Of a DNA stretch of 64,000 nucleotides, positions 37,500 to 53,302 are shown one piece after another. Origin of the DNA: a virus. The position numbers and the translations under genes were made by a program. The notes beneath the pieces were generated by a model, which saw only the letters and a list, made by a program, of their open reading frames with translations, did no database searches and was not told the origin of the DNA. Numbering within the stretch: position 1 is the stretch's first letter; every line of letters begins with the position of its first letter. The DNA lies in the IMG/VR virus record IMGVR_UViG_3300036760_000193, positions 91,395 through 155,394 of that record. One strand, given 5' to 3'.

Positions 37500-37781
37500 T
37501 TAAATATATTTTCGAAGTCCAGTGTCTGGATCGAACTTTGTTCCTTTCTGATTTTCTTTTGCGATCTCTTCTAAAAGTCTCATCACCTGATTGACTTTGT
37601 AGTTGACAAGAAACGGTGTCAACAAATTTACAATGTTTTGAAACTTCGGATCGTTTATCAAATCACCAAGCCCACCAACTTTTGTCATAGAGTTTAGAAG
37701 CGTCTTTGCTTCATTGATCGCTTCATCTTTTAACTCTACTTCATTAAGAATCCTTTGTGCTTGTGATAAATATACAGACAT
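37500..37781 (-). CDS. Unknown small tail protein
   Basis: A 93-residue helical protein starting MSVYLSQAQRILNEVELKDE and ending DPDTGLRKYI. An earlier ATG (37814) is in frame, but I prefer 37781, which has ACGAGG eight bases ahead; 37814 has no SD. It lies just before the sheath gene and just after a promoter-like element. Tail completion or a sheath-associated role is possible by position only. Confidence 0.6.
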   Translation of the reverse strand: MSVYLSQAQRILNEVELKDEAINEAKTLLNSMTKVGGLGDLINDPKFQNIVNLLTPFLVNYKVNQVMRLLEEIAKENQKGTKFDPDTGLRKYI

Positions 37782-37818
37782 TTCCAATACCTCGTAATTA
37801 TAATTTTCGGACATAGGT

Positions 37819-37866
37819 CTATATAAACATTCGAAAATATTATACTTTTTACGGGATCAAAGACAA
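37819..37866 (-). promoter_or_regulatory. Promoter with conserved 27-bp element, copy 1
   Basis: TTGTCT (37866-37861), 16 bases, then TATAAT (37844-37839) on the minus strand. From the -10 onward the DNA reads GTATAATATTTTCGAAT, three variable bases, then TATATAG. The same 27-bp arrangement, 24 identical bases, occurs at 52774-52800. It lies in the gap before the 93-residue, sheath and tube genes and could start a tail-module transcript. Confidence 0.65.
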
Positions 37867-38430
37867 AGAGATAGGGATTTTAGCCAAGGTCGTTCCTGGC
37901 CCCGTATCATCATGCCATTCTGTGTAAATTTCGAGTGTCAAACCACCAGTTATAAACCACCTGTCCCCATTGAAAGACCTCTTGTCCTGGGATAGTGTGG
38001 TTCTCTTGACTTCTATCCCCCTATCCGCTAAATCATCGTTGATCGTCTTCAAATGGTCATAAATCCTGTCTACTATTTGGTCTTTGGTCTTAAGGTCATC
38101 AATTGTATGTACAGCTATCGTTACGTTCATGTCAAAGCTGGTGAACATCTCATCGCTGATCTGAACTTTGTTGTTGTCCAGCCTCGTTCTGTGAGAATCA
38201 GGCCCCAAATACCGCTGTTCTTGACCTGGTACAGTCTCTACCGTAATCGCGGGGAAGAATACAGGCTCCTGAGATAGGACGGCGGCAATTACAATTCTCG
38301 TATTGTCAAAATCGTATTCCCCATCAATCGTCTCAGCATAATTATAATCTGGGTCGCCTGTAAAGATACGTCGCAGGTTCAAAATAACGGCTTCCCGTAC
38401 CTTCTTTGATAGTTGAAATTGGTTGCTCAT
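37849..38430 (-). CDS. Neck or tail-terminator-type protein
   Basis: A 193-residue protein. Its order of elements (KKVREAVILNLRRIFTGD, FFPAITVETVPGQEQRYLGP, MFTSFDMNVTIAVHTID, DQIVDRIYDHLKTINDDLA) fits the alpha/beta fold of tail terminators and head-tail joining proteins that precede the sheath gene. There is no unique motif, so the role is inferred from context. Its ATG overlaps the previous stop as TAATG. Confidence 0.55.
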   Translation of the reverse strand: MSNQFQLSKKVREAVILNLRRIFTGDPDYNYAETIDGEYDFDNTRIVIAAVLSQEPVFFPAITVETVPGQEQRYLGPDSHRTRLDNNKVQISDEMFTSFDMNVTIAVHTIDDLKTKDQIVDRIYDHLKTINDDLADRGIEVKRTTLSQDKRSFNGDRWFITGGLTLEIYTEWHDDTGPGTTLAKIPISLSLIP

Positions 38431-38729
38431 TAGTCGCCCTCTGTGTAAAAATAATGAATGTCTGTTTCTGGGTCATAAAACCAGGCCAATTGCCCTTTTG
38501 CGTCATTTATCCCAAATGCAATGCCAGGCTTATTGATTAGTACCCGATGTTCTGGGGGTAGTATCACCATCCCTACGAATTGCCCCAAAGTAAGAGGTCT
38601 CCCTTCATCCACAATGCTCTGTAATTCTGAAGCGTCTGCGATATTGCAGTCCTCTTGATCTAAAATTGTTTGACAGGTATCCCAGAATCGCAAACGATCT
38701 GATGCCAAAAGTTCCCGTAGCCAGTTCAT
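38430..38729 (-). CDS. Unknown neck-region protein
   Basis: A 99-residue product beginning MNWLRELLASDRLRFWDT. It is acidic, with a hydrophobic centre (LGQFVGMVILPPEHRVLI), and ends FYDPETDIHYFYTEGD. No family is recognised. It lies between two proteins of neck type, so a virion completion role is likely by position. AAGG precedes the ATG; the stop overlaps the next start. Confidence 0.6.
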   Translation of the reverse strand: MNWLRELLASDRLRFWDTCQTILDQEDCNIADASELQSIVDEGRPLTLGQFVGMVILPPEHRVLINKPGIAFGINDAKGQLAWFYDPETDIHYFYTEGD

Positions 38730-38737
38730 GGGATGCC

Positions 38738-39256
38738 TTAAACCGGAATCTTATAAATTGGGGCGTTTCTCTCGACTTCAGTGGTCTCAAAATCTTGTCT
38801 TGTTACAAAATGCTTCCAACGCCGTTGATAGGTGGTCGTGATCCAGAGTCTTTGTCCATTTCGACGGACAATGAAATCACCATTCGACAAAACTGGCTCC
38901 CAAAGCGTCCAGGAACGAGGTGTATACACTCTACGTCGTCCCCACTCTTCTATAACAGCAGCTTCTTGCCCACCACTGATTAAACTGACTACGATCTCGA
39001 TAGGTTTGAAGTATCCACCAACATATCCTGTTCCGAAACAAATAGGTGGGTTTTCCTGTTCATGGTTTCCATCTTTCTTATAAACTTGGTCAAAATTTGG
39101 GCAGCGCGTACCAGTATGTTTCTTCTTATATAGAAGAACACGCTCTCCACCCATGTCCAAAAGCCATTTGTAACGATTTCTGATTTCCAGAAAAAGTCTT
39201 TCTTTGGAATGGGGACCTCTGTTAGAAGTTCCTGGCAATATTTGAAGATGTGACAT
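38738..39256 (-). CDS. Neck/head-completion-type protein with Cys motif
   Basis: A 172-residue product. It holds TRCPNFDQVYKKDGN followed by PPICFGTGYVGGYFKPIEI, a Cys/Gly pattern I associate with a conserved phage neck or baseplate-region protein that may bind metal, although only two Cys are clear. The start at 39256 is chosen because AGGAGAACAAA precedes it; an earlier TTG five codons up is unlikely. The homing endonuclease gene runs 35 bases into it. Confidence 0.6.
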   Translation of the reverse strand: MSHLQILPGTSNRGPHSKERLFLEIRNRYKWLLDMGGERVLLYKKKHTGTRCPNFDQVYKKDGNHEQENPPICFGTGYVGGYFKPIEIVVSLISGGQEAAVIEEWGRRRVYTPRSWTLWEPVLSNGDFIVRRNGQRLWITTTYQRRWKHFVTRQDFETTEVERNAPIYKIPV

Positions 39257-39869
39257 TTTGTTCTCCTGCAATCTTAAATCTTAATTTTTGGGCTATACTT
39301 TGTTTGTTTCGACTTTCTTGTGACCACTTTGTCCCAATTCTAGCTTTTGAAGCATTTTTTATATGTTCGGAAGTTTGCTTATATCCTAAATGCGCCAACT
39401 TCATTTTTAATTTCGTTTCTTCTGAATGTTTCTTACCACGCATTCTACTAGGATTACTTTTCCGAACACCATCACGTATTTTTCTGCGAATTTCATCTGT
39501 AAAAATCATTTTTGATCCAGAAATCTTTGCTTTTGCTTTGAATTCTTCGGTTCGTTTTATTCCAAAACTGTTTCCTGCTGTTGGGCTGATATTATATCCA
39601 TTTTCTCTATTATAACTTCCATATAAATCCAACCAATATTGTTCTCGGTCTAAAAGTTTTTCAGCGTCATATACTAACTCTAAAATTATAAATTCAAAGG
39701 CAGCAGCTTCATATTTATTCCAAGCTGCTTGTAAATGCGCCGAATGATGTTTGTTCTTACGGAGTCTATGCAAATGTATATTCCATCTGCGATTCAAAGA
39801 TATTGCCGAACCCACATAAATCTTTCCAGATATTTTATGTCGTATTCCGTAAATTCCAGACTTTATCAT
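39222..39869 (-). CDS. GIY-YIG homing endonuclease
   Basis: A 215-residue free-standing endonuclease. The catalytic GIY-YIG module is KSGIYGIRHKISGKIYVGSA (about 3-22), with the Arg/His region ISLNRRWNIHLHRLRKNKH and a later Glu/Asn stretch. The C-terminal half carries NUMOD3-type DNA-binding repeats (MRGKKHSEETKLKMKLAHL, RIGTKWSQESRNK). It cuts DNA to spread its own gene. No intron is visible around it, so it is an intergenic insertion between neck genes. The start lacks an SD; TTG 39890 is an alternative start. A strong hairpin lies just upstream. Confidence 0.88.
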   Translation of the reverse strand: MIKSGIYGIRHKISGKIYVGSAISLNRRWNIHLHRLRKNKHHSAHLQAAWNKYEAAAFEFIILELVYDAEKLLDREQYWLDLYGSYNRENGYNISPTAGNSFGIKRTEEFKAKAKISGSKMIFTDEIRRKIRDGVRKSNPSRMRGKKHSEETKLKMKLAHLGYKQTSEHIKNASKARIGTKWSQESRNKQSIAQKLRFKIAGEQNVTSSNIARNF

Positions 39870-39888
39870 AAAATCCAATAGAAAATAC

Positions 39889-39928
39889 AAAGCGCGGCAT
39901 CTACGGCATAACCGTAGACACCGGCTTT
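39889..39928 (-). other. Long hairpin ahead of the homing endonuclease
   Basis: On the minus strand AAAGC, CGGTG and TCTACGG pair with CCGTAGA, TGCCG and GCTTT around a TTATG loop: 17 pairs counting two G-U, plus one bulged C. It begins 25 bases after the stop of the 86-residue gene and ends beside the possible TTG start. A modest T-rich tract (TTTGTATTTTC) follows. It may be a terminator or may limit translation of the endonuclease. Confidence 0.65.
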
Positions 39929-39952
39929 GAGATTTTCAAACTTTCAAACTTC

Positions 39953-40213
39953 TTATTGTGCAGCGGGTGTTTCTGCGGGTGTACCTACGAGTTCAGAAAG
40001 AAGTCTCTCTTGCCCTTGTAGTTCTAGCCCTCTTGAGAGCAGCTTGTCTTTTGCAGCTTGCAACTGTTGCTGGTTCTTGACTTGTTGCTCTTCTACTTGA
40101 CGGATTTGCGCCTTGATCTGCGCTAACTCTGCACTAACAGCTTTCAGACGATCCGCAAGGCTCACTTCTTTAGTTGCCTCTGCGCCATTTGCTACGACTT
40201 CTGTGTCATTCAT
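39953..40213 (-). CDS. Small coiled-coil protein
   Basis: An 86-residue product with one long helix (about 18-72; SAELAQIKAQIRQVEEQQVK, LQAAKDKLLSRGLELQGQE) flanked by Ala/Thr-rich ends. Heptad spacing indicates an oligomeric coiled coil. The SD CGGAGGAG is very strong and a promoter-like element lies upstream, so abundant expression is expected. It could be a virion structural or scaffolding-like protein; the function is not recognised. Confidence 0.7.
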   Translation of the reverse strand: MNDTEVVANGAEATKEVSLADRLKAVSAELAQIKAQIRQVEEQQVKNQQQLQAAKDKLLSRGLELQGQERLLSELVGTPAETPAAQ

Positions 40214-40269
40214 TTTCTTTTCTCCTCCGGTGGATTTTACTTCTTGTATGGGTATACACCATACGTTAC

Positions 40270-40285
40270 TTTATTGTACGAAAAA
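40270..40285 (-). promoter_or_regulatory. Promoter-like element, pair member B
   Basis: The minus strand reads TTTTTCGTACAATAAA, 15 of 16 identical to the element at 6383-6398. The -10-like hexamer is TACAAT (40278-40273). Downstream in the leader a hairpin GTATGG-(7 nt)-CCATAC precedes the strong SD of the 86-residue gene. No clear -35 is present. Confidence 0.55.
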
Positions 40286-40289
40286 ATTT

Positions 40290-40317
40290 CAATTATAAAA
40301 AGAGTTATAATTACTCT
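40290..40317 (-). terminator. Weak rho-independent terminator candidate
   Basis: Overlapping the stop of the 104-residue gene, AGAGT and ACTCT pair around a 7-base loop, followed by TTTTATAATT. The five-pair stem is short. Its position between a fibre operon end and the element at 40270 makes termination plausible. Confidence 0.35.
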
Positions 40318-40625
40318 GGTTTAGGATATTTTAGCTTTACTGCGTTACAGGCGGCGACATATGCTTCCCAAACTGAAGGGTCGCCATTTTCCTTATGTAC
40401 CAAAGCGTCTAAACCATCACCAATTGGTGGATATTCAGGTGCTCTCAATTCTCTATAGGATGTAGAATCCATTAAAGCTTCACCTGCTACAAATTCATCA
40501 TTCGTTGGTAAAGTTTGAACTTCATCTATCCATTCTAAATCTTCAAGTCGATCTCCACGAAGAGTCCATTCCGCATTTGGGCGTATCAAACTCAAAATTT
40601 TTGTAATTTTTTCATGGTTATCCAT
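40311..40625 (-). CDS. XkdW-like small fibre-associated protein
   Basis: A 104-residue product. The start MDNHEKITKILSLIRPNAEW continues TLRGDRLEDLEWIDE, and the end has EYPPIGDGLDALVH and ACNAVKLKYPKPE. This is the pattern of short XkdW-type proteins found next to many phage fibre genes. The ATG at 40625 is chosen for AGAGGAAATT ahead of it; the open frame upstream is a shadow of the fibre gene. Its role is probably in fibre assembly. Confidence 0.75.
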   Translation of the reverse strand: MDNHEKITKILSLIRPNAEWTLRGDRLEDLEWIDEVQTLPTNDEFVAGEALMDSTSYRELRAPEYPPIGDGLDALVHKENGDPSVWEAYVAACNAVKLKYPKPE

Positions 40626-40635
40626 AATTTCCTCT

Positions 40636-41385
40636 TTACTGGCCGTATTCAATAGCGGTGATGACAGCGGCTGGTGTAAATGCACCGGCTGTTACTGGAT
40701 ATCTCGCAAATCCACCACCACCATTAGTTCTAATTCTCACTCTGTAAGTTTGAGCAGCAACAGAACCTGGGGAATTGTATGTGTGCATACAAATATAGTA
40801 ATTGTTATTCTGTCTTGTTCCGTGAAATCCACCGTTATCTGGCGCGAGATTAGTACCATTTCTAGCAATAGTAGCGAATGAAATATCACCAGCTTCTTGT
40901 GTCATATTTCCAGAAGCAATGACAAAAATTATACTTGTTGAAAATTTAGGAGTGATAGTTACAAAAGATGTTGTGTCAGTAAATGCTGTAGCTGTAGTAC
41001 TGGTTTGAGTATTTGTAGTGCCTGTAACAACTTGAACAACGGGGCGTATAACATTTCCGCCAAGTTGCATTCCTGTTGGGGAATTAAAATTATGAGTTCC
41101 ATTGGATGTAATTAAACCAGCGGAAGATATTGTTAATGGATTAGCATGGCCGCTTGTACGAAAAGTCAATGTTGGAGAAATATACTGCATTCCAGTATTT
41201 CCGTCAGCTAGAAATGAATAAAATTGCTGTACTTGTTCTCCACCATTAAAAAATCTAGCGACTTGAGTTCCACCAGAAGAAAGATTAATTATATTAGATA
41301 CAGTAAAATAAAAACCTGTATTGGTAGAGCTATTCCAATGAAGTGCGGGAGTTCCAACTGCACCATCTTCTAGTTTTACAGCCAT
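40636..41385 (-). CDS. Short tail fibre protein
   Basis: A 249-residue fibre. The N-terminal half carries the usual fibre units (GAVGTPALHWNSSTNTGFYF, FLADGNTGMQYISPTLTF). The C-terminal 130 residues (QVVTGTTNTQTSTTATAF, then TPKFSTSIIFVIASG) form a compact domain like those ending many phage fibres. It ends immediately ahead of the XkdW-like gene. GAGGTAGAATAAC precedes the ATG. Confidence 0.75.
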   Translation of the reverse strand: MAVKLEDGAVGTPALHWNSSTNTGFYFTVSNIINLSSGGTQVARFFNGGEQVQQFYSFLADGNTGMQYISPTLTFRTSGHANPLTISSAGLITSNGTHNFNSPTGMQLGGNVIRPVVQVVTGTTNTQTSTTATAFTDTTSFVTITPKFSTSIIFVIASGNMTQEAGDISFATIARNGTNLAPDNGGFHGTRQNNNYYICMHTYNSPGSVAAQTYRVRIRTNGGGGFARYPVTAGAFTPAAVITAIEYGQ

Positions 41386-41386
41386 G

Positions 41387-42688
41387 TTATTCTACCTCTT
41401 CTGTTAAAAATCTGAACTTTTTACCTTCTGGTGAAATTAAGAGAACTTCATTTTTATCTCTCCCAACTTTATCACCTTCTGTGATTTTCCATCCATTATC
41501 TAATGCGATATCACCAGAATGGATCGTTTGTGCCCAAAGATTCAACCATCTATGTGTTGAATTACCATTATCATTTGTAATATCTGTAGTAGGTGAGTGA
41601 TCTACACTAAATACAAGAGCCGTATTGGTTAGGTGCAATCTTTGAATGCCATTAGTTGCGAAACCTATATCATTAGAAGCAGCTAAGAAAAGTCCTGTCG
41701 TTGTGCTTGAATTGAAATATAATCCAGGAGCCGCTGCGGTTCCACTTTGAATACCAAAAACTGTTTCAATAAAACTATTCGTATTAGAAACAGTAAAAGT
41801 TCTAGTTCCATTTGTTGCGAATGAAATTGCTTCTGGCCCATTCCAATACATACCAGTATTTGTATCACCAGAAAAAGATAACGATGGACTTCCTGCAAGA
41901 CCATTTGCTAAAAATACTGTTCCACTGAATGTAGAATTATTACCAAAAGTAGTTGTGCCATTTATTGTACGTGATCCTTCAGTCAAAACAAAACTGGCTG
42001 AAGCACCAGCATCAGGTATGGTATAAGTTCTAGCACCTGCCTGAGACGCATTAGTTATTAAAGTTGTAGTATTACCCGCGTTATTAACAGATGAAATTCT
42101 TAATTTACCAAGATTTAATCCAGAAGGGTAAACATCAAATGTTGCTGCTTCACCATTAATGCCAGCTGAAAGAGAACTTCGTCCAGCTAAATTAAAAATA
42201 TAACTGCTGGTATTGAAATTTGCATAAATCCCGCCAGTTACAATATACAAAAGACTGTCGCCAGATGAATATAACCCAGTATTAGATGACGCTCCCTGAA
42301 AATGTATACCTGGGTTTGACCCCAATCCTTCATAAGAATGAAGTGTTGAACTAATTGTCAATTGCCCCGAAAGTCCTAAACTTCCAGACCCGATTCTATA
42401 TAATCCCGTACTTGGTTCAGACGAAAATGAATATGAAGGAAAACTTAATGTTCCATCAGGAGCTAAAAGAGGAAATGAAGTACCACCAGTCGCGCTTATT
42501 AATTTCCAAGTAGACCCAGTATAAACATAAAGTTCATCTGTATCTGATTTCCAATAAACTTGCCCCTCAATACCACTTCCTGGTAATGTGGCAGAATTTT
42601 CAAAAACCAGATTGGCAGTACCTTTCTGTTTGAAGTCTACTTTTCCTTCGCTTCCACCGCTTCCTGTTACTTCAAAATAATTTCCCAT
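41387..42688 (-). CDS. Tail fibre protein
   Basis: A 433-residue fibre made of repeated units such as FPSYSFSSEPSTGLYRIGSG, SLSFSGDTNTGMYWNG and ARTYTIPDAGASASFVLTEG. The last unit also occurs in the 2,111-residue fibre. The N-terminus includes EGQVYWKSDTDELYVYTGST. The C-terminal part (GNSTHRWLNLWAQTIHSGD, EKKF-type end) differs from its neighbours. It lies within a run of fibre genes with a two-base gap to the next. Confidence 0.75.
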   Translation of the reverse strand: MGNYFEVTGSGGSEGKVDFKQKGTANLVFENSATLPGSGIEGQVYWKSDTDELYVYTGSTWKLISATGGTSFPLLAPDGTLSFPSYSFSSEPSTGLYRIGSGSLGLSGQLTISSTLHSYEGLGSNPGIHFQGASSNTGLYSSGDSLLYIVTGGIYANFNTSSYIFNLAGRSSLSAGINGEAATFDVYPSGLNLGKLRISSVNNAGNTTTLITNASQAGARTYTIPDAGASASFVLTEGSRTINGTTTFGNNSTFSGTVFLANGLAGSPSLSFSGDTNTGMYWNGPEAISFATNGTRTFTVSNTNSFIETVFGIQSGTAAAPGLYFNSSTTTGLFLAASNDIGFATNGIQRLHLTNTALVFSVDHSPTTDITNDNGNSTHRWLNLWAQTIHSGDIALDNGWKITEGDKVGRDKNEVLLISPEGKKFRFLTEEVE

Positions 42689-42710
42689 CTCATTTTACTC
42701 CGCTTTACTC

Positions 42711-44150
42711 TTAAATTATGAACCAATTTGATCCATCACAAACAATTGTAATAGATTCATCTTGTGTTGTTATAACTAATGTTGTGAATGTATCTATCAT
42801 TTCACTACCATCTGGGTCTACTGTTACTGTATTTACAGAACTGTCTATTTTTTTGATGACATATTGAAGGCCGCTATTTCCAGAAGCTGCTGGCAAGTTT
42901 ACAGTAATGGCATTGCTTGTTGCATCTGCTAAAATTATTCCATCGGATGCCGCCGTATAAGACGCCGATGTGATAGTAACCACTGATGGTGCGCTACTAG
43001 AATTCGTGTCTACATAAGATTTTGTAGCGGCATCTTGTGGGTCTGTTGGATCAGTTAATCCTGTTATAAATCCACTATTCAATTCAATAGTTAAATTGCT
43101 TCCACGAATTCTTGAACCAGTTCGTACTGATCCGTCAGCATCGTAACCAAGTTGCAAATAAATATCTGCCGCTGGATTGCCTTTTGAAATTCTTACGGCA
43201 GGATGAAATCCACTAGATATTCCTTGTTCAAAACCAGTATCAAGCATACGATCAGCATCAGCACCAAAATTAACTGAGTAAAGTTGGATTCTTCCACTAC
43301 CGTCTGTTCCAAGTCCAAAAAATGGTTCATATTCAGTAGAAGCATTTGCAGCTAAACCAAATCCCCCATTCGATACTAATTCTGCATTTGTTCCATCTAA
43401 AGAAACTAAAACAGAACCAATTGTGGAGTCATAACTAATCCAAGCATCGTCGCCATTTCCAAGAATGACTTTATGATTATTTGGAATTTTGAAAGCATTG
43501 GTGGTCATTCTTGCCATTTCTGTTTGAGCTAGATACCCACTTATAAAAATAAGTTCTGAATTGCTTTCTAAAGTGTTAATAATAGTTGCTGGGGTATTTG
43601 TTCCATCAGCATGATAACCAAAACGAAGTGTACCTGCATTTCCATTATTTCCAAAAGATTGTCGTCCAACGTGCATGACATAGTGATCGCCTATATCAAC
43701 CCCATGATTCCAAGTAACTTCCAAAACATTGAAGACATCATCTATTGTACCTTGAAATACATTATCATTAGTAATTTGAACTTGTCCACTATCTTCCCGA
43801 AGATAAATACCAGGATTGTATGTTCCACTGCCATCTGATTCAGTATTTGAATAAAGATACAAACCCTTTCTTGAAGCTAATGTGTTTTCTGTACCACTTG
43901 CATCTGATGATAACTCAATACTTCCAATATCTGTATTATATTTCAAAAATGCCTGATTGCTTAATCCAAAAATCAGTTTATTGTTATTGGTTATTCTCAA
44001 ATCTCTGTTTGTAGAGATATCCCGTGGGAAGGTAAAATCATCTGTTACCACAGCACTTATCTTGGAAGGTATAATAGACCCGTTAGCTAAGTCAGCTGAT
44101 GTGAGGTTAGCATCTAAAATTTGATCTCCTGGTATTTGTGTTCGTCCCAT
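42711..44150 (-). CDS. Tail fibre protein
   Basis: A 479-residue fibre. The N-terminal IIPSKISAVVTDDFTFPRDI then STNRDLRITNNNKLIFG matches the N-terminus of the 2,111-residue fibre. The body has the GYDADGSVRTGSRIRGSNL unit. After DAATKSYVDTNS, the C-terminal 110 residues (ITSASYTAASDGIILADATS, NSGLQYVIKKIDSS) are nearly the same as the end of the fibre at 62753. Shared ends point to modular exchange within this genome. TTGGAGAATCTATA precedes the ATG. Confidence 0.8.
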   Translation of the reverse strand: MGRTQIPGDQILDANLTSADLANGSIIPSKISAVVTDDFTFPRDISTNRDLRITNNNKLIFGLSNQAFLKYNTDIGSIELSSDASGTENTLASRKGLYLYSNTESDGSGTYNPGIYLREDSGQVQITNDNVFQGTIDDVFNVLEVTWNHGVDIGDHYVMHVGRQSFGNNGNAGTLRFGYHADGTNTPATIINTLESNSELIFISGYLAQTEMARMTTNAFKIPNNHKVILGNGDDAWISYDSTIGSVLVSLDGTNAELVSNGGFGLAANASTEYEPFFGLGTDGSGRIQLYSVNFGADADRMLDTGFEQGISSGFHPAVRISKGNPAADIYLQLGYDADGSVRTGSRIRGSNLTIELNSGFITGLTDPTDPQDAATKSYVDTNSSSAPSVVTITSASYTAASDGIILADATSNAITVNLPAASGNSGLQYVIKKIDSSVNTVTVDPDGSEMIDTFTTLVITTQDESITIVCDGSNWFII

Positions 44151-44401
44151 TATAGATTCTCCAATAAATTTTCTCTTGCTACAATTTCATCTGCCATTTT
44201 AGATACTTCTGGTGGTATAATACCATCAGAATCATCATGCCGGAATGTTCCATACAGTGGCGTTCGATTAAAATTCTTTATCTTACTTCCTTTAATCAAA
44301 ACAATGTAATACATCGTATCTTCCACTGCGAATGCTCTTAAAATTCGCATAGGTACAGAAATTTTCAACTCTAAGTCTTGACCAACCCTATAAATAGCCA
44401 C
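44150..44401 (-). CDS. Unknown 83-residue protein
   Basis: A small product beginning MAIYRVGQDLELKISVPMRI. It looks like a compact alpha/beta protein. The start is GTG at 44401, with GGAAAG ahead in the end of the giant fibre gene. It is squeezed between two fibre genes, so a fibre chaperone or connector is possible. No family is recognised. Confidence 0.6.
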   Translation of the reverse strand: MAIYRVGQDLELKISVPMRILRAFAVEDTMYYIVLIKGSKIKNFNRTPLYGTFRHDDSDGIIPPEVSKMADEIVARENLLENL

Positions 44402-44404
44402 GGG

Positions 44405-47400
44405 TTACGCTTTCCAATAAGAGACACGTACCTTTGATCCAGTGATAGGAGCCATATTAAATGTAATTATAGCTCCAGAGATTGTGTAGTCATTGCTACC
44501 ACCTTCATCTTGCAAAATACCATTTAAGTATACATGTTCAGACCCTACAGCGGTAGAAAAGGCCAATATGAATGTAACATTTGAACTATCTACTGCACCC
44601 AATGGGGTTTCACGGGTTACAATGTTTGTCATTGCATAGGTGATGCCAGCGGTGTTAACTTTTACTCCAGCACCACTTTCAAAGAGAGACGTTCCATCTA
44701 ATTTTACACTAATGACACCAAATGAAATATCAATACCATCTCCCGCAACAAGCGCGGTAGATGCAGAGAATTGTGTCCAATTAACATTATCTGTGTCTAA
44801 TACAATATTTCCATCCCAGACAACTACCCAACCAGTACCAGGTTGTGAACCAGATTCAACCAATGTGAAGTTTCCGCCAGATACTTCATTCGCTGGTGTT
44901 CCATCCATGTCAGTTGATCTAGTTAGAACTGCGTCAGTGACGCCTTGATCTCCTTCATTTACAACAGAATAAATACCATTTTGTTTAGCATCTGTTTGGT
45001 CTTTGACAAGAATTCTATCTCCAGCCACAACTGTTACGCCATCAATAGAGGCGGCTCCAGGGGCAGGAAAGTATGTAGCATCATTTTTATCAATTGTTAT
45101 CGTACCAGTAACATAACCAGGAATATCTAACAAGGTAGCTGCACGAACTGATTGTTTAGGATCAAGTCCAGCTGATACACTATCTACATATCTCTTGTTT
45201 GCGGCATCGGTGTCGCTCGTTGGGTCTCCAAGAGAAGTAATCTTATTATTGTTAAGATCAATTGTTGAAGAACCTTGCATTTCGATACCACTATTGGTGA
45301 ATCGAAGACGCTCTGTACCACCAGTTGCTATACCGATTTTTTGTGTATCGACTCTAAAGAAACCAGTACCTTGTTGAGCACCAGTGATGTTAATAGAAGG
45401 ATTTGTAGCATCACCTTGATAAACTTGAATTTGTGCATTTTGTCCCATTACTAAGTCTATTTCATCACCCAATAGAAGGGCACCAACATTTCCGGGCTTA
45501 GCACTTGCATTGGTATCTGTTGTAAGCCATTGAATTGTATTACCTTCAACAGAAAAGGCTAAGTATTGTGAACCGTCGCGGAACATACCCATCATGGGGT
45601 CACTTAAGAAGGCATAGCCTGGATAAGTAGAAGTTCCATCTAGAACTTGTAGTCCTTCTTGGGTGAATCGTCCCGATGCTGTACCATGAGCCGCGAATGA
45701 AACAGTAGAATTGAAATATCCAGTAATTGCATCTTGTTCTGAATAGATACCATTTGATCCAACTCCAGTTCCACCCATTCTAATTGCTGGGAATCCCAAT
45801 GATCCATAATTATCTCCACCAAGACGATCTAGAACTATGAATGTTTCATCCCAATTTATATTTGCGGGGTCTCCATGCAAGAAAAGAGGATTATAAACAC
45901 TGGTTTCCATTGTGAAGAATCCACCACAATTAAAATCAAACCCAGGATCACTTGCATCAAAGAAAATATTTGTATTTACATCAGATGCTAAAGAAACATA
46001 TGTGTTGTCCGCCATTCTGATATTAGAAGCAAATGATACTTCACCACTATCAGCAATAGAAACGGCACTAGCTGAACTGGCGGTTCCTAAAATAAGAGGG
46101 TGACTATTTCTAGATTGAATCAATGCAGCTGTAACCGCAGAACCGTCCGCTCTATAACCAATAGATAAATGCTTTTGTGCTGCATCATTAATTGGGGTAT
46201 TTGTTCGAGAAATCCAAATTTGATCGTAGTCTCCAGCGGTCAAATCTTGCTCGAATATCAATTCTAAGTGATGATCTGCGGAAGTTGCGCCTTGCGCTGT
46301 ATTGGCATTTCTAATTTTAACTGTTCCATTTGTTCCCATTTCAATACTAGGTTGATACGTTCCACCACCATCTGCATTTACATTAGAGAATAATTCCATA
46401 CTACCTTCGGAAGCAAAATAGAAATCTCCTCCAGAACCAGTAGATGTTTGTCCTACAATCCCACCAACATCAGTGCTGTATTTGAACCACGCTTGGTCAG
46501 AGTTTCCTAGAATTAATTTATTTCCTTCTGCTAATTTAAGACTTGTATCATTAATTCTAGCTCTCTCTATTCCACCTGTAGCAAAACCAACAAATGTGTA
46601 ACCTGATCCAAATACTCCAGTATCAACTGTAGCCGCATCAGGGCCACCGATAGCGATGTCATCAGTATAATAAGTGTTGGCACCTCCCGTGATGGTTAAA
46701 TCTGTTGCGCTGAAAGTAGCAACTCCTAAACCATTAACCATGATGTTAACACCAGTATCTAATACATCACTGGTAATACCAGTTGTGGGATGAGATGAGA
46801 ATCCATAAGCAGGAATGGTTTGATTTGAAGTATCACCCTGAGTTTGACCAGTAAATATATGTGTTGTAGCAACAAAGTTAAGAGGACTCAAAGATTCAAC
46901 AGTTAGATTTTCTCCACGGATTCTTGAACCTGTACCAACTGATCCATCAGAATCATAACCAATCCAAACTTGTGAATTTCCTACATTCCAATCAAAATGA
47001 ACAGCTGGATTAAACCCAACCGTTGCAGTTCCACGGGCTATTTCTACAAGTAATTCCTCAGTACCAGAAGCAAGATTTGATTCTATATGTACAGAACCAT
47101 TAGTATTAAGATGAAATGCAGGAAGAAAATCTCCGCCTGAAAAACCAGCCCCAGCATTACTATAAAGAACAAGATTATTTTGTGCTCCTAAATAGAAATG
47201 ACCAGCAGCTACAGTTTGTCCACCAATAACAGTACCAGCGGCAGCATACTCTAACCAAGCATTATCAGAATTTCCAAAAATTACTTTTTTATCATTTGTT
47301 AAACGAACATTCTGTGAAAAATCAACATCGCCGGAAGTTTGAACGATTATTGCCTCTGTTGAGAAAGGTTTAATATGTAGAGGAACATCCGTTACATTGT

Positions 47401-50400
47401 CTTGACCACCACGAATCCAGGAATAAGAGATACCTGTTCCACCACCATTCATCATATAACCGATGTCTAGTAATTCGCCGGCAGATTCATTTGCTACATC
47501 AAGTACAACATGGCTAGAATTTGCTGCGTAGCCATTATTCATTGAAATAGAAACGTATCTATTATCTACTGATCCCTGAGAACCATCATTTTCAATTAAT
47601 ACAAGTCCAGATGATTGCATAGAAACAAGAGGAAATCCACTCGTAAATGAAAGAGTTAAATCTCCGGTACGTCCTATAACAGTATCCGTTTTTATTTGCC
47701 CATCTACGATTAAATCATTTGTAACTGTAACATCAGTTCCATCGGTTGTTAAAGAAGTTGTATCATCTAAGACATTTCCAGTCGCTGGATAATATGCGAA
47801 TCGTCCAATTTGACCACCATTAACAGTACCTGTTCCTTGTGATGAGAATTGTGTCCAGTTAACATTGTCTGTTCCAAGAATAATAGTACCGTCCCAGACA
47901 ACTACCCAACCAGTTCCTGACTGTGAACCAGATTCAATAAATGTAAAGTTTCCACCAGATACTTCATTCGCTGGTGTTCCATCCATGTCAGTTGATCTCG
48001 TCCATGCTCCAGAATGTGCAATGTAAATACCGTTTTGTTTAGCATCGGTTTGGTCTTTGACAAGAATACGATTTCCGTCAACTAATACAATTGTATCTAT
48101 TGTTAGAAGACCACTGAGAGCAGTATTGGCTGTTGTTGCGGCACGAACGGATTCTTTGGGGTCTAAACCTGCGGCGACACCATCTACATAATATTTTGTG
48201 GCAGCATCTTGAGGGTTTGTTGGGTCTACGACATTTATAACCTTATGGGTATTCATGTCTAATTGACCAGTTGTTGTGTTAATAACGATTAAACTTGTTC
48301 CTGCTGCATTGGCGAATTTAATACCACTTGAAGAATCTGCGAACGGATGAATTTGAATATCACCAGTACGGCCTTTCAATTCATTAGTAGAAATTTTTCC
48401 ATTGACTGTAGCATCGCCTGTCAATGTAGAATTTCCAGAAGCGTCAATACTGTATCTTAAAGTACCTGCTGTAGAAAAACCAAGTTGATCTGCACCAATT
48501 CTATACATACCCATTCCAGCACTATTAAAGAATGAATGTGTTGGGGCTGCTGCTGTACCATCTCTACCTTGCAATTGCCCGGCACTTACGATTCCAAGTT
48601 GTGTTGTTCCACCAGTAGAGAAGAATAAATTTCCACTGACTTTATACATACCCATCGTTGTATCAGTAGAGAATGTGAATCCAGGTGCTCCTGCTGAACC
48701 ATCTTGGGCATTTAAGTGATTAGCGTAGATATTTCCTTTTGCTGGTGAACCAGGACTTCCATCTGCTCCTGTACCAGTCAATACAATACTTCCACCATTA
48801 GCAGCGGTATCGGATGTTAAAGTAATGTTTCCACCAAGATCATCACCAGATATAGGACAATCACCAGACGTTAATGTTATACTTCCACCACGGGTCTGAT
48901 TTGCTGCACCCGATCCGAAAGTCATCGTAACATCCCCGCTTGTTAATGTGATGCTACCACCAAAAGTTTCACCACTAGCTCCACCGACTCTAACATCAGC
49001 ATTTCCAGACGTTAATGTGATACCACCACCCGATGAATGCGAAGGAGAACCATTTTGAGAACCCCCCGTCGTTAAAGTTATACTTCCACCAGTTTGCGAA
49101 GCAGTTCCATTTGAGCCTGGATAATCTCCAGATGATAATGTTAAATTTCCTCCTTGACCAGAAGCGGCATTACCAATTTTACTTGTAATAAATACGTTAG
49201 CATCAGATACATTTGCTTGTTTAGCAACATAAAAATTTTCTGTAACTGTTTTGCTACCATTGATTATTTGAGGACTTTCTGTCATTACGAAAGTAGCATT
49301 TGCACCCGCATCAGGAATTGTATAAGTACGAGAAGCTACAGGGGCAGGAGACGTAATAGTTGTGGTGTTTGTTGTACCCAAAACTATTTGATTGGTTGTT
49401 GAAGTAATTGTAACAGGAAGTTGTGCCGTTACATTGGCAGTGTCTACACGCAATTTCTCTGTGCTATTTGTTGTAACTGCCCAAATATTTGCGCCAGGAG
49501 AGAATGTACCAGTATCTGGATCACCAGTAAAACCTTGAGAAGCTACGCCAGCTGTACCTGAAATGAATCGAACGGGACTAAAAGATTCCCATTGGACACC
49601 ATTATGAGACCATCTTTCAGAACTTCCTACAGTAATACGAAAATCAGACCCACCTGTACTATTAAAGATACCAGTTGTTGCTGATCCTATTTCTATATCA
49701 GGAGCAACTGCGCTACCCCCACTTTTTGTTCTTAAAGCATTGAATGCAGTCGTTCTTGCAGTTGCAACACGAAAATATTCTGTACCGCCAGCAGCAACAC
49801 CAACAGAATCTGGAGCTTGACTAAATATACCTGAATTTGAATTGCTAGTAAATGAATATGAAGGAAGTGCATTGGTGCCGTCTGCATTTAATATTTTATT
49901 ACCAACATTCAAAGCACTTGTAACTGTAACATTTATATTATCAGTTGTTAAAGCAATTGTGTCATCAACAGTTGTTCCAGTTGATGGATAATAAGCAAAA
50001 TTACCTGCAAGACCTGAATTTACAGTTCCACCGGCAGTATCAGCAGCATCTACATATGACTTAGTGGTAGCATCTTGAGCAGATGTTGGATCAGAAATAT
50101 TAGTTATTTTATGGCTAGTCATATCTAATACATTATTATTTATTGCGACTATACCATTCGTTGCTATGCTTACGGCATTTGGAGTAGTTTCAGAACCCAA
50201 AGATAATGGATAAGAAACGCTATGAACATAAGCTGCCGTAACAAGGGCACCATCAGCAACATATCCCATTCTTAAATAGGAATCAACGCCATTTTTTCCA
50301 ATTTTTAAGGCCATATGTGACCCGATGTCTACTCCATTTTCCATTTGTATGTAGACAAAACGCGAATCATCTGATCCTTGGAATATATTTTGAAGAGTTA

Positions 50401-50740
50401 TATTTCCTGAAGTTCCTAATTCAAAATAAGGTTCGTAATTTCCTGAACCATCAAAAGCTGAATTAGAACTGATTGCCACTCTACCACCCGCAGCAATATT
50501 AAAATCTGTTGATGCCTGATCTTGAGCATATAATGATCCATGATCTGTTGAATATTTTACAAACGCATTATCAAAATTTCCAAGAACCAATTTATTATCA
50601 TCAGTAATATGTAAATCTCTAGCAGCAGAGATATCTCTAGGGAATAAAAAGTCATCCGTAGGACTCGTACTAATCTTGCTAGGTATTAAAGTGGCGTCCA
50701 TCGCCTGTGTATCTAATCTGATTTCTGTTATTGTTGACAT
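44405..50740 (-). CDS. Giant modular tail fibre, 2,111 residues
   Basis: The largest gene here. The N-terminus (TLIPSKISTSPTDDFLFPRD) is the anchor shared with the 479-residue fibre. Then come beta units ending in G(I/M)(F/Y), a glycine-rich GGSITLTSGD region (about 525-690), two copies of the GLDPK(E/Q)SVRAATT module, several units of the form KLILGNSDQAWFKYSTD followed by a GYRADGSAVTAALIQS segment, and the end SEHVYLNGILQDEGGSNDYT. That end resembles the last domains of the two genes upstream. It is probably a trimeric, very long side fibre. It contains no enzyme motif that I can see. Confidence 0.85.
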   Translation of the reverse strand: MSTITEIRLDTQAMDATLIPSKISTSPTDDFLFPRDISAARDLHITDDNKLVLGNFDNAFVKYSTDHGSLYAQDQASTDFNIAAGGRVAISSNSAFDGSGNYEPYFELGTSGNITLQNIFQGSDDSRFVYIQMENGVDIGSHMALKIGKNGVDSYLRMGYVADGALVTAAYVHSVSYPLSLGSETTPNAVSIATNGIVAINNNVLDMTSHKITNISDPTSAQDATTKSYVDAADTAGGTVNSGLAGNFAYYPSTGTTVDDTIALTTDNINVTVTSALNVGNKILNADGTNALPSYSFTSNSNSGIFSQAPDSVGVAAGGTEYFRVATARTTAFNALRTKSGGSAVAPDIEIGSATTGIFNSTGGSDFRITVGSSERWSHNGVQWESFSPVRFISGTAGVASQGFTGDPDTGTFSPGANIWAVTTNSTEKLRVDTANVTAQLPVTITSTTNQIVLGTTNTTTITSPAPVASRTYTIPDAGANATFVMTESPQIINGSKTVTENFYVAKQANVSDANVFITSKIGNAASGQGGNLTLSSGDYPGSNGTASQTGGSITLTTGGSQNGSPSHSSGGGITLTSGNADVRVGGASGETFGGSITLTSGDVTMTFGSGAANQTRGGSITLTSGDCPISGDDLGGNITLTSDTAANGGSIVLTGTGADGSPGSPAKGNIYANHLNAQDGSAGAPGFTFSTDTTMGMYKVSGNLFFSTGGTTQLGIVSAGQLQGRDGTAAAPTHSFFNSAGMGMYRIGADQLGFSTAGTLRYSIDASGNSTLTGDATVNGKISTNELKGRTGDIQIHPFADSSSGIKFANAAGTSLIVINTTTGQLDMNTHKVINVVDPTNPQDAATKYYVDGVAAGLDPKESVRAATTANTALSGLLTIDTIVLVDGNRILVKDQTDAKQNGIYIAHSGAWTRSTDMDGTPANEVSGGNFTFIESGSQSGTGWVVVWDGTIILGTDNVNWTQFSSQGTGTVNGGQIGRFAYYPATGNVLDDTTSLTTDGTDVTVTNDLIVDGQIKTDTVIGRTGDLTLSFTSGFPLVSMQSSGLVLIENDGSQGSVDNRYVSISMNNGYAANSSHVVLDVANESAGELLDIGYMMNGGGTGISYSWIRGGQDNVTDVPLHIKPFSTEAIIVQTSGDVDFSQNVRLTNDKKVIFGNSDNAWLEYAAAGTVIGGQTVAAGHFYLGAQNNLVLYSNAGAGFSGGDFLPAFHLNTNGSVHIESNLASGTEELLVEIARGTATVGFNPAVHFDWNVGNSQVWIGYDSDGSVGTGSRIRGENLTVESLSPLNFVATTHIFTGQTQGDTSNQTIPAYGFSSHPTTGITSDVLDTGVNIMVNGLGVATFSATDLTITGGANTYYTDDIAIGGPDAATVDTGVFGSGYTFVGFATGGIERARINDTSLKLAEGNKLILGNSDQAWFKYSTDVGGIVGQTSTGSGGDFYFASEGSMELFSNVNADGGGTYQPSIEMGTNGTVKIRNANTAQGATSADHHLELIFEQDLTAGDYDQIWISRTNTPINDAAQKHLSIGYRADGSAVTAALIQSRNSHPLILGTASSASAVSIADSGEVSFASNIRMADNTYVSLASDVNTNIFFDASDPGFDFNCGGFFTMETSVYNPLFLHGDPANINWDETFIVLDRLGGDNYGSLGFPAIRMGGTGVGSNGIYSEQDAITGYFNSTVSFAAHGTASGRFTQEGLQVLDGTSTYPGYAFLSDPMMGMFRDGSQYLAFSVEGNTIQWLTTDTNASAKPGNVGALLLGDEIDLVMGQNAQIQVYQGDATNPSINITGAQQGTGFFRVDTQKIGIATGGTERLRFTNSGIEMQGSSTIDLNNNKITSLGDPTSDTDAANKRYVDSVSAGLDPKQSVRAATLLDIPGYVTGTITIDKNDATYFPAPGAASIDGVTVVAGDRILVKDQTDAKQNGIYSVVNEGDQGVTDAVLTRSTDMDGTPANEVSGGNFTLVESGSQPGTGWVVVWDGNIVLDTDNVNWTQFSASTALVAGDGIDISFGVISVKLDGTSLFESGAGVKVNTAGITYAMTNIVTRETPLGAVDSSNVTFILAFSTAVGSEHVYLNGILQDEGGSNDYTISGAIITFNMAPITGSKVRVSYWKA
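44760..45220 (-). repeat. Fibre module copy at the end of the giant fibre
   Basis: This encodes ANKRYVDSVSAGLDPKQSVR through NEVSGGNFTLVESGS to NWTQFSAST, with a 25-residue insertion. A 44-base stretch around 44880-44920 is identical to the second copy at 47830-48220, indicating recent duplication. A third copy ends the gene at 24027. Confidence 0.8.
47830..48220 (-). repeat. Internal fibre module copy
   Basis: This encodes AATKYYVDGVAAGLDPKESV through NEVSGGNFTFIESGS to NWTQFSSQG in the middle of the giant fibre. It is close to the copy at 44760-45220 at DNA level and more distant from that at 24150-24520. Confidence 0.8.
48673..49170 (-). repeat. Glycine-rich GGSITLTSGD repeats
   Basis: About eight degenerate units of the form GG(S/N)(I/L)TLTSGD, with variable Gly/Ser/Asn-rich spacers of 6-20 residues. 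Regular spacing of GG and TLTSG suggests a stacked, possibly polyglycine-type or beta-helical shaft. Confidence 0.8.
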
Positions 50741-50760
50741 TTTATTGGTTCTCCATTAAA

Positions 50761-51576
50761 TTAAGATGGGTATACAATTTGCAATCCATCCCCTACTGTT
50801 AATATGATCCCTGGGTCTAGAGTGATAATATTTCCTGAAATTGTGTAATCAAAAGATGCTCCCAGTCTAAGAACTATTCCATTCCATGAAACTATTGTTG
50901 AATTTGGAATTGGCGTTTGTGATAAAACTATTGTATGATCTGTAATTGTATTTGAAACTGTTACTTCGTCTACAAAATACGTACCTACACTGCTTGGAAT
51001 ATCAACTTGGGTCTTACCCCCGCTATCTGTTACCGTTACACCCGCTCCAATGAAATTGATTGTTGGTCTTTGTGTAAGTGATATACCTTCATCTTCAATA
51101 AGATGCCCATTAAGTGATGATAATGGAATAAATGATACTCCATTATCTACAAGTATCTCATTTAAGTCAGTTCTCCAAATCAATCGTCCTGAATTACCAG
51201 GTGCTGGATTGGAAACAAGATTTTCAAGTCTAAAATTTAGAGATTGATTATTGTGAAAGTCCAAATCTGCATCAATATCTAGATGAATAGTATGAACACC
51301 ACCAGGTTTTATTTCTAGCATGTCTGCGGTGATTTCTAAATTAGCAAGATCAATATTTACGTCTATAGCATTGGTAAAAGAGTTATAAACAAGACCTTCT
51401 CCAAACACAGCTGAAGCAAACTTACTTGCCGTTATAGTTCCATCTAAAATAGAAATATTTGTAACAGCATCAGTTGCCAATTTTTCTGATGTAACTGCAC
51501 CATCAGCCAAAATTTCTGTTGTGCAAGACCCTACTCTAGCTTGTTCTTCTAAATTTACTATTCTAGGTTGCGCCAT
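50761..51576 (-). CDS. Fibre/appendage protein
   Basis: A 271-residue protein. It starts MAQPRIVNLEEQARVGSCTT and has repeated VTNISILDGTI-like stretches, then GHLIEDEGISLTQRPTINFI, which also occurs in the 333-residue protein at 23015. The C-terminal 75 residues (TIVSWNGIVLRLGASFDYTI, then TLDPGIILTVGDGLQIVY) are a small beta domain also ending the neighbouring giant fibre and the fibronectin-like protein. The SD is weak; it follows the previous stop by two bases. Confidence 0.7.
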   Translation of the reverse strand: MAQPRIVNLEEQARVGSCTTEILADGAVTSEKLATDAVTNISILDGTITASKFASAVFGEGLVYNSFTNAIDVNIDLANLEITADMLEIKPGGVHTIHLDIDADLDFHNNQSLNFRLENLVSNPAPGNSGRLIWRTDLNEILVDNGVSFIPLSSLNGHLIEDEGISLTQRPTINFIGAGVTVTDSGGKTQVDIPSSVGTYFVDEVTVSNTITDHTIVLSQTPIPNSTIVSWNGIVLRLGASFDYTISGNIITLDPGIILTVGDGLQIVYPS

Positions 51577-51578
51577 AA

Positions 51579-52745
51579 TTAAATACCAAACTTTTTATAG
51601 TTCACTCTGATAAAACCACCTAAGTCAGGTGGATCGGTGAACGTAATTTGTTGTGAAAGAGGGCCTTCATTAAAATGTACTCCTGGCAACATCTTTACAC
51701 CGTTCAAATATACTTCAACTGATCCTTTTCTATACGGAGCTAGAGTAATAAACAATGTGTTCACCGTATCAATAACCCCAATCGGCGTCTCATCGGTTAC
51801 AAAATCCAATGGACTGATCGAATTAGGGAATGGCTGCTCTTCAAAGCTGTGATATGTATTCTCATGAACAGGTGTTGTCAGTAACAATGAACTTTCATTG
51901 CCTCCGTCATCAACTGCTGTCACGGAATAATAAAAAACGATACCAAAAGTGAATGGAACCCGGTCAAGAACAGATAAAACTGGTGTCGCTGTCTCCCCAA
52001 TCTTTTGAAAATTTACAATATCTGTTGGTGACTCACTACGATACACCCTATAGTTGGCGATGTTTGTCTCTTGGTTTGGTTGCCAGGTAATCAAATAACC
52101 TCTTTCTGCCAAAAGATTGAAAACTCTGATCGCTTTCACTGTATCAGGGCCTGTCGCTGTGTTAACTGACCCTAAAGATGTTAAACTTGTTACAGCCAAA
52201 ACAGAATTTCTAGCTTTTACACGTCCGTAATAGGTTATGGATGGTATTAAATTTGTAAAAACATATCCAACTGTGGTTACGAATCCAGAAGTAACTACAC
52301 CTGTGAGAAAACTTGGGTCTGTTGCAAGTTCCACTTCATATTCAGTACCAGTGGGATTTGCATTGGCAAGCCAATTCGCCATTACAGTCGTTGAAAAAAC
52401 ATTTGCAAAACTTGCTGTTATAGGTTGTGCTGCTAAAGTAGTCGCGGTTATGACAGGCCCGTTGACTGATTCATTGGTTCCTATAGCATCGTCCGCTGCC
52501 GTCAAAGAAATTGTATGCAATGTGTTGGGAACCGCATTTATAACGGTGATACTCAAAACGGGGAGAAATACTTTGGTCGCTTGCAATACACCCAAAGCAT
52601 TGACGTAAAAAATTCCCAGACCTGTTATCACTCTAAAAGTGTAATAGGTTAAAGGTGGAGCGGGATTTCCGTCGGGGTTAACCGAAATTGTAAATCCATT
52701 GGCTGTAAGTGCTGAAATTGATGGAGCTACCGGTGTTAAGGCCAT
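51579..52745 (-). CDS. Fibronectin type III-like appendage protein
   Basis: A 388-residue protein. Three Ig/FnIII-like beta domains are suggested by TPVAPSISALTANGFTISVN, ASFANVFSTTVMANWLANAN and LAERGYLITWQPNQETNIAN then YRVYRSESP. The last 75 residues (GSVEVYLNGVKMLPGVHF) are the small end domain shared with the two next genes. FnIII domains on phage virions bind surface polymers weakly. The ATG overlaps the previous gene's end and has CGGAGGAAGACGATAAATT ahead. Confidence 0.75.
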   Translation of the reverse strand: MALTPVAPSISALTANGFTISVNPDGNPAPPLTYYTFRVITGLGIFYVNALGVLQATKVFLPVLSITVINAVPNTLHTISLTAADDAIGTNESVNGPVITATTLAAQPITASFANVFSTTVMANWLANANPTGTEYEVELATDPSFLTGVVTSGFVTTVGYVFTNLIPSITYYGRVKARNSVLAVTSLTSLGSVNTATGPDTVKAIRVFNLLAERGYLITWQPNQETNIANYRVYRSESPTDIVNFQKIGETATPVLSVLDRVPFTFGIVFYYSVTAVDDGGNESSLLLTTPVHENTYHSFEEQPFPNSISPLDFVTDETPIGVIDTVNTLFITLAPYRKGSVEVYLNGVKMLPGVHFNEGPLSQQITFTDPPDLGGFIRVNYKKFGI

Positions 52746-53302
52746 AATTTATCGTCTTCCTCCGTAACAGGAGCTATATACTTATTCGAAAATATTATAC
52801 TGTCGATATTGACGGAAACGTCACTAATTTCGCTTGTTTCAGCATTTTGTAACGATGCAGACACAGTTCCCTCGAAATCAATCAGTTCTACGTTGTTTTC
52901 TTCAATCTTGTTGATCCGAGCCTTGGAACCCGCAGGAACGATCAAAATTCCGTCGCCAACTGCTTCTGTGACAAGGTTTTTTGCGCCTACAATGAGACGC
53001 CCGTTGTAGTCTTCGACTTTGGCGGTCACTTCTACGTCTTCAGTTACAATTACCATGTCACCGACTTTGAAGGCTCCCATCGTTGGAATGGCTTGCCCAG
53101 CTTTATCAGTTTTTTCAAGGTCAAGGCGGGAGATTTTGTTGAGGACTGGATCACCTTCGACACTGTATGCAATAGACTGGCGGAGGTCATCTATTGACAT
53201 CTGATCGTCGTCAGAAATATCCACTAAGAAAGTCACCTTGTAGGTGCCTTTCAAATTCTTTTCGCCTGATAGTTCGTCCCACGGAATTTTGTAATCATTC
53301 AT
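52736..53302 (-). CDS. Unknown beta-rich virion-type protein
   Basis: A 188-residue acidic product (MNDYKIPWDELSGEKNLKGT) with strand-rich sequence (FKVGDMVIVTEDVEVTAKVE). It resembles no family I can name; a decoration or assembly role is possible. Its last 25 codons coincide with the conserved element at 52774-52800, and its stop overlaps the next start. AGAGGACAAAACT precedes the ATG. Confidence 0.65.
   Translation of the reverse strand: MNDYKIPWDELSGEKNLKGTYKVTFLVDISDDDQMSIDDLRQSIAYSVEGDPVLNKISRLDLEKTDKAGQAIPTMGAFKVGDMVIVTEDVEVTAKVEDYNGRLIVGAKNLVTEAVGDGILIVPAGSKARINKIEENNVELIDFEGTVSASLQNAETSEISDVSVNIDSIIFSNKYIAPVTEEDDKLWP
52774..52800 (-). promoter_or_regulatory. Conserved 27-bp element, copy 2
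   Basis: The minus strand reads GTATAATATTTTCGAAT, three bases, then TATATAG, matching 37819-37845 at 24 of 27 positions. Here it lies inside the 3' coding end of the 188-residue gene, 29 bases before the next ATG. A good -35 is not visible. It may start transcription of the FnIII and giant fibre genes. Confidence 0.55.

Follow-up and report, generated by a model that had tools for sequence, protein, structure and literature searches.

A lineage-specific element at late-module heads as a probable promoter class in large phages, distant relatives of Bacillus phage G

Why should a large virus genome carry two nearly identical 27-bp sites on the same strand, one between genes and one inside the end of a gene? 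The stretch in question (the window; 64,000 nucleotides, positions 91,395 to 155,394 of IMG/VR virus record IMGVR_UViG_3300036760_000193) holds them at 37819-37845 (copy A) and 52774-52800 (copy B). A first-pass annotation of these letters had proposed a site dedicated to late transcription, either a promoter or an activator site, and this has become the best-supported reading. Judged by its sequence and placement, the element is very probably a promoter class of late genes that differs from lineage to lineage. With only slightly less confidence, we assign this late class to large phages with contractile tails, distant relatives of Bacillus phage G, and propose that it is used by a host polymerase that the phage has reprogrammed. 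For these phages, known only from environmental sequence, it would then be the probable signal controlling late genes.

Read on the minus strand, copy A is GTATAATATTTTCGAATGTTTATATAG and copy B is GTATAATATTTTCGAATAAGTATATAG, identical at 24 of 27 bases as first reported. With up to three mismatches allowed, the 27-bp pattern has these two sites only in the window and none in 100 dinucleotide shuffles. The coordinates of the open reading frames (ORFs) bear out the two settings: copy A falls in the gap that separates ORFs 37500-37814 and 37849-38430, while copy B lies within the 3' end of ORF 52736-53302, just ahead of ORF 51579-52745.

The first-pass annotation had suggested searching the complete genome and related phages, and would have counted a lack of further copies against its proposal; both searches returned copies. 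The whole record measures 193,203 bp and is apparently a complete genome because it has an exact 127-bp terminal repeat; its minus strand carries nearly all of the genes. A 17-bp core, GTATAATATTTTCGAAT, occurs seven times without mismatch, always on this gene strand. No site with one to three mismatches exists in the whole record, where background begins at four, and a reversed control pattern has 0 matches there. Six of the seven copies have TATATA or TATATG 3 bp after the 17-mer. All seven sit at gene ends or between genes, heading packaging, capsid, tail-sheath and tail-fibre modules, with one upstream of a transfer RNA (tRNA) cluster (genome positions, all minus strand):

192148, minus: precedes an ORF with Cys-X2-Cys pairs, function unassigned
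190578, minus: precedes a 58-amino-acid ORF, then a 659-amino-acid gene (188387-190366)
174202, minus: precedes an endonuclease-VII-like gene, then the terminase and portal module
164600, minus: precedes a small gene (164276) and the protease/capsid module
144168, minus: window copy B, precedes a tail-fibre-like module
129213, minus: window copy A, precedes the tail sheath
20150, minus: upstream of the tRNA cluster, which has about 33 genes

Both window copies precede structural blocks, as had been claimed, and the genes behind them are as follows (window positions; E, expect value).

37500-37814, minus: first ORF after copy A, 104 amino acids, no family match
35791-37470, minus: tail sheath, the main late gene after copy A (phrog_2839, E 1.3e-43); the relatives' orthologue is also preceded by the element
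51579-52745, minus: first gene after copy B, 388 amino acids, heading the tail-fibre-like module (weak minor-tail match, phrog_6977, E 6.5e-5)

Translation of ORF 37500-37814 may begin internally, at its second ATG, where the ribosome site (GAGG) is better.

Is the element confined to this genome? An exact scan of public viral contigs for the core plus its TATATA half gave 0 matches, and the 17-mer alone found 5 viral and 40 genome single matches in public collections, by our own estimate about the number that chance would produce. The relatives became visible only through protein search: four portal sequences led to 44 related viral loci. Tail-sheath relatives had been tried as a comparison set and set aside as too distant. 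Local repeats in loci L067-L070 gave no clear motif; the element was seen on reading the intergenic gaps directly. Many of the 44 loci carry the same kind of element in a lineage-specific form, with 2-7 copies per relative genome. Their shared layout begins with an A-run and [A/G]TATAA[T/C][A/T], continues with a stretch specific to the lineage and closes with a -10-like block that ends in TAG(G). Four versions illustrate it.

G002: AAAAAGTATAATATTTTCCTATATTAATAGGAG
L080: AAAGTATAATATTTCTGCGTTATTATAGGAG
G003 and G007: CCCTTAAAAATATAATAAAATCAGGTATTATTAGGG
G009: TGTAAAAATATAACTAAAAGTGGTGTATATAGGG

These versions stand at orthologous operon heads (genes named by their position in the present genome).

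Gene 164276: orthologue preceded by the element in G001, G002, G003, G007 and G009 (five genomes)
Tail sheath: preceded by the element in G001, G003 and G009
Gene 172366: preceded by the element in G003, G007 and G009
Gene 188387: preceded by the element in G002 and G009
Tail-fibre gene 142155: preceded by the element in G009

Two further features accompany the element in relatives. A second conserved box, GTA[AG]ATAA[GC]AAT, lies about 20-30 bp upstream of it in one lineage group (L074, L076, L080, L085 and L110; G001, G002, G010 and G013), and leaders tend to form small hairpins, such as GGACGT-ACTAT-ACGTCC of G003, in the 0-30 bp that follow the right block.

We compared the placement of 37 copies from nine genomes with random expectation. 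The relatives' copies were collected by motif patterns that used no gene positions, and the statistics cover the copies found rather than all true copies. All but one lie on the main gene strand (36 of 37), a single copy falls inside a gene (1 of 37, against 84% expected at random), and 32 of 37 are within 150 bp before an ORF (against 19%). The only reversed copy (G007, 115797) lies 38 bp before a reversed HNH-type gene. Several copies outside the structural region of G003 and G007 precede endonuclease-like genes (HNH, endonuclease-VII-like) that are inserted among other genes, and G007:115096-115734 (minus) holds an endonuclease cassette with its own late element, inserted against the main direction. 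Mobile endonuclease genes of this group would carry the same promoter, even when reversed, a situation comparable to that in T4, whose homing endonucleases are expressed from middle and late promoters (PMC2988022).

The copies have also changed in a coordinated manner. A 23-nt block is 0.88 identical between positions within one genome, compared to 0.68 and 0.67 between lineages at two orthologous positions, while upstream flanks within genomes are 0.29 identical. Copies are more alike within a genome than at orthologous sites, so those of one genome have all changed together, which is the pattern expected if one trans-acting protein reads all of them. In at least five lineages the whole set of copies has been rewritten jointly, which would provide a natural series of promoter variants; consequently, the bases that determine specificity could be mapped by comparison.

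Which parts of the element would act as a promoter? The upstream recognition block consists of the A-run, [G/A]TATAATA and the lineage-specific stretch; here it would be the invariant GTATAATATTTTCGAAT, at about -31 to -15. The -10-like box would be TATATA in this genome and TATTATTAGG or TATAATAGG in relatives. A start site is placed 6-7 bp past this box, probably near the A of TATG in this genome and at ACTACG in many relatives, and the window copies are laid out accordingly.

37846-37850, minus: copy A, A-run AAAAA directly upstream of the core, kept in most copies and in relatives
37829-37845, minus: copy A, upstream recognition block GTATAATATTTTCGAAT, exact 17-mer, one of seven; putative -31 to -15
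37820-37825, minus: copy A, right block TATATA, -10-like, aligned with the relatives' TATTAT/TATAAT blocks; putative start near 37814
52784-52800, minus: copy B, upstream recognition block GTATAATATTTTCGAAT, exact 17-mer, inside the 3' end of ORF 52736-53302
52775-52780, minus: copy B, right block TATATA, -10-like; putative start near 52768

A standard sigma-70 promoter has a TTGACA-like -35 placed 16-18 bp ahead of TATAAT; because the seven copies share no conserved -35, the element is not of this kind. The TATAAT that had been pointed out in both copies is indeed there, as TATAATA in the upstream block. We disfavor it as the -10 box, as relatives place the -10-like position in the right block (TATATA/TATTAT).

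In the mechanism that we propose, host RNA polymerase, reprogrammed by one or more phage proteins, would begin transcription at the element. The upstream block would be contacted by a factor standing in the usual place of sigma region 4, and the -10-like box would be opened by host sigma region 2 or by an unrecognized partner. Polymerase departing from the element would then read the packaging, capsid, tail and fibre modules, presumably late in infection. The best candidate for the factor is a free-standing protein that resembles only sigma region 4, encoded beside a NusG-like gene.

Genome 74835-75317, outside the window: free-standing sigma-region-4-like protein, 160 amino acids, matching TIGR02937 positions 65-164
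Genome 74835-76560 (L011:14835-16560): conserved neighbors, comprising the sigma-4-like gene, a NusG/KOW antiterminator-like gene (PF02357, E 2.5e-8) and a DnaG-type primase core

The protein's match to TIGR02937 (E 4.5e-6) is below the curated cut-off, and it has no Pfam match. Its predicted structure is confident over approximately residues 60-125, with a predicted local distance difference test score (pLDDT) of 91-96 across the domain. Sigma region 4 accounts for most of the top PDB matches of this model (TMt up to 0.81, best Foldseek E 0.013); among the matches is region 4 of E. coli sigma-E on -35 DNA (TMt about 0.8, Foldseek E 0.1). The gene is kept in G001, G002, G009 and G005, which are all the relative contigs that cover the region. 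We put the proposal that this protein is part of the reader just short of an even chance, and it is a better candidate than the sigma factor discussed below. No region 2 partner for it was found in this phage group. A fuller version of the mechanism, which we offer tentatively and with more doubt than belief, is a phage 'half-sigma': the stand-alone sigma-4 protein, together with host sigma region 2 or an unrecognized partner, would be coupled to the neighboring NusG-like antiterminator for the long late operons, with promoters rewritten in step by each lineage. There is a bacterial precedent for dividing region 4 and region 2 functions between two proteins, SigO-RsoA of Bacillus subtilis, listed as a two-protein sigma (PMC10141391), although this is a stress system, and it differs further in having the region 2 partner not found here.

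Several observations weigh against a uniform late promoter class read in this way. The tRNA-side copy (20150) has a degraded right half. At the copy at 192148, the start codon falls inside the right block, so the gene behind it would have to be read from a transcript that starts farther upstream. This genome and L073, its nearest relative, have 2 bp more between the two blocks than the other relatives, and several late intergenic gaps hold no copy. G005 has no recognizable element though its sigma-4-like gene is present. Finally, co-occurrence of the element and the sigma-4-like gene is seen in four genomes only, this one included, because the contigs of G003 and G007, which carry the element, leave the sigma-4-like region uncovered.

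Among the alternatives, the one that survives best retains host sigma. Under sigma appropriation, as at T4 middle promoters, host sigma would read the -10-like box and a phage activator on the upstream block would replace the -35 contact. Both readings make the element a promoter and differ in whether host sigma is retained. The right block resembles TATAAT, the upstream block lies near -30 in place of a -35 with no TTGACA conserved, and the right block begins 12 bp after GTATAATA in this genome, compared to 12 +/- 1 bp between MotA box and -10 in T4 (PMC2988021). This equal gap keeps sigma appropriation a live variant. However, the gap is shorter in relatives, the blocks TATATA and TATTATTAG fit TATAAT worse than T4 middle promoters need, and no MotA or AsiA homologue turned up, though no search was aimed at them. 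The element also lacks the MotA box sequence, is much more strictly conserved than T4 middle promoters and serves genes that look late. We regard appropriation as a possible but minority explanation. The T4 late promoters, which depend on gp55, gp33 and gp45, with gp33 a coactivator that binds the beta flap, have a single -10-like element (PMC7892883); they share with the present element an AT-rich -10-like box, late genes and the lack of a -35, and they differ from it in that a long upstream block is conserved here.

The first-pass annotation had instead pointed to a phage sigma factor encoded nearby, and we asked whether this protein could read the element.

6898-7647, minus: sigA, sigma-factor-like protein, 249 amino acids (phrog_351, E 1.7e-9; TIGR02937, E 1.8e-10)

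It is sigma-related as stated, matching sigma-70/ECF models (its TIGR02937 score is just below the curated cut-off), and it sits among the replication genes of the same genome. As the shared reader we rejected it as unlikely: in G001, G002, G003, G007 and G009, which all carry the element, neither the syntenic place nor a profile search yielded sigA, whereas G005 has a weak homologue without a recognizable element. The late promoters of phage 7-11, GTAAtg-(16)-aCTA, have been tested experimentally and are read by a phage sigma, SaPh711_gp47, and those of phiEco32, tAATGTAtA, by phi32_gp36 (PMC8948821). There, as here, a handful of class-specific promoters stand at the heads of late modules, the consensus varies between related phages at similar genome positions (PMC8948821), and host polymerase works with a phage factor, as we propose for the present element. 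The present element differs in sequence and layout, its upstream block extending nearly to the -10-like box, and its conserved candidate reader has sigma region 4 only instead of being an ECF-like sigma. We do not file the element as 7-11 type because we looked for a conserved ECF-like sigma (regions 2 and 4) linked to it and found none. Bacillus phage G is the nearest named phage found, with 32% identity in the portal and 28% in the terminase, and encodes several sigma-like proteins. It was rejected as a carrier: its 497-kb genome, scanned with the relatives' pattern, held nothing above background. Literature searches, which did not reach most subscription journals, found no description of the motif.

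Could another polymerase be responsible? No PF00940 match to a single-subunit phage RNA polymerase was found, in a search whose control gave no signal either, and a scan of the large late proteins without assignment revealed no polymerase among them. Weak searches found neither a T7-like nor a multisubunit phage polymerase, and T4 gp55 had no match in any genome, with control genomes silent too.

An RNA-level leader signal, either a 5' hairpin or a site recruiting the NusG-like protein for read-through of long late operons, would make sense of the NusG/KOW gene adjoining the sigma-4-like gene and being conserved with it, and in many relatives the sequence behind the right block folds (mean z -1.1, against -0.05 upstream). 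However, the most conserved part is AT-rich, unstructured and upstream of the putative start, this genome's copies fold weakly, and such a signal could only supplement a promoter role; we consider it very unlikely. A non-transcription DNA site (an origin of replication, a packaging or partition site, or a target of recombination or homing that was copied to several places in the genome) is the most improbable reading of all: the exact 17-bp identity exceeds what marking seven sites in 193 kb needs and mobile endonuclease genes adjoin several copies in relatives, but the copies lie mostly 20-90 bp ahead of ORFs, their polarity tracks the downstream gene even in the reversed case, they recur at orthologous operon heads across diverged phages, and their dissimilar flanks speak against duplicated cassettes.

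Other promoter-like motifs are present beside the putative late class. About 15 standard, near-perfect sigma-70 promoters lie on the gene strand, mostly at 13-93 kb and outside the structural region, and these are likely early promoters. In them TTGACA and TATAAT stand 16-17 bp apart, frequently with a TG ahead of the TATAAT; the count is 17 on the gene strand and 1 on the other, and one site in the window lies near 1213-1235. A second motif, TTTTTCGTATAATA, occurs seven times on the gene strand and 0 times on the other (as TTCGTANAATA), with sites at window 6394 and 40282 (genome 97788 and 131676) and at genome 7155, 45128, 85489 and 184496. Its sites have no TTGACA and are often just ahead of ORFs; it is possibly a further phage-specific promoter class of the extended -10 type, and perhaps the target of sigA.

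Several other features were observed along the way. The tRNA cluster (L008:10936-19820; about 33 predicted genes, including one whose anticodon was called, oddly, as four bases) is also served by a separate sigma-70-like promoter at 19836. The tail region of the window contains a GIY-YIG homing endonuclease-like gene (39222-39890; phrog_314, E 2.1e-36). A nicotinate phosphoribosyltransferase gene (L011:8867-10255, genome 68867-70255; E 1.2e-194) possibly serves salvage of nicotinamide adenine dinucleotide during infection. Among the relatives, L067 (L067:5168-7879 and L067:2425-4911) has a portal with an insertion of about 350 residues after GEGPSF that resembles an intein, and a terminase ORF that likewise far exceeds the expected length.

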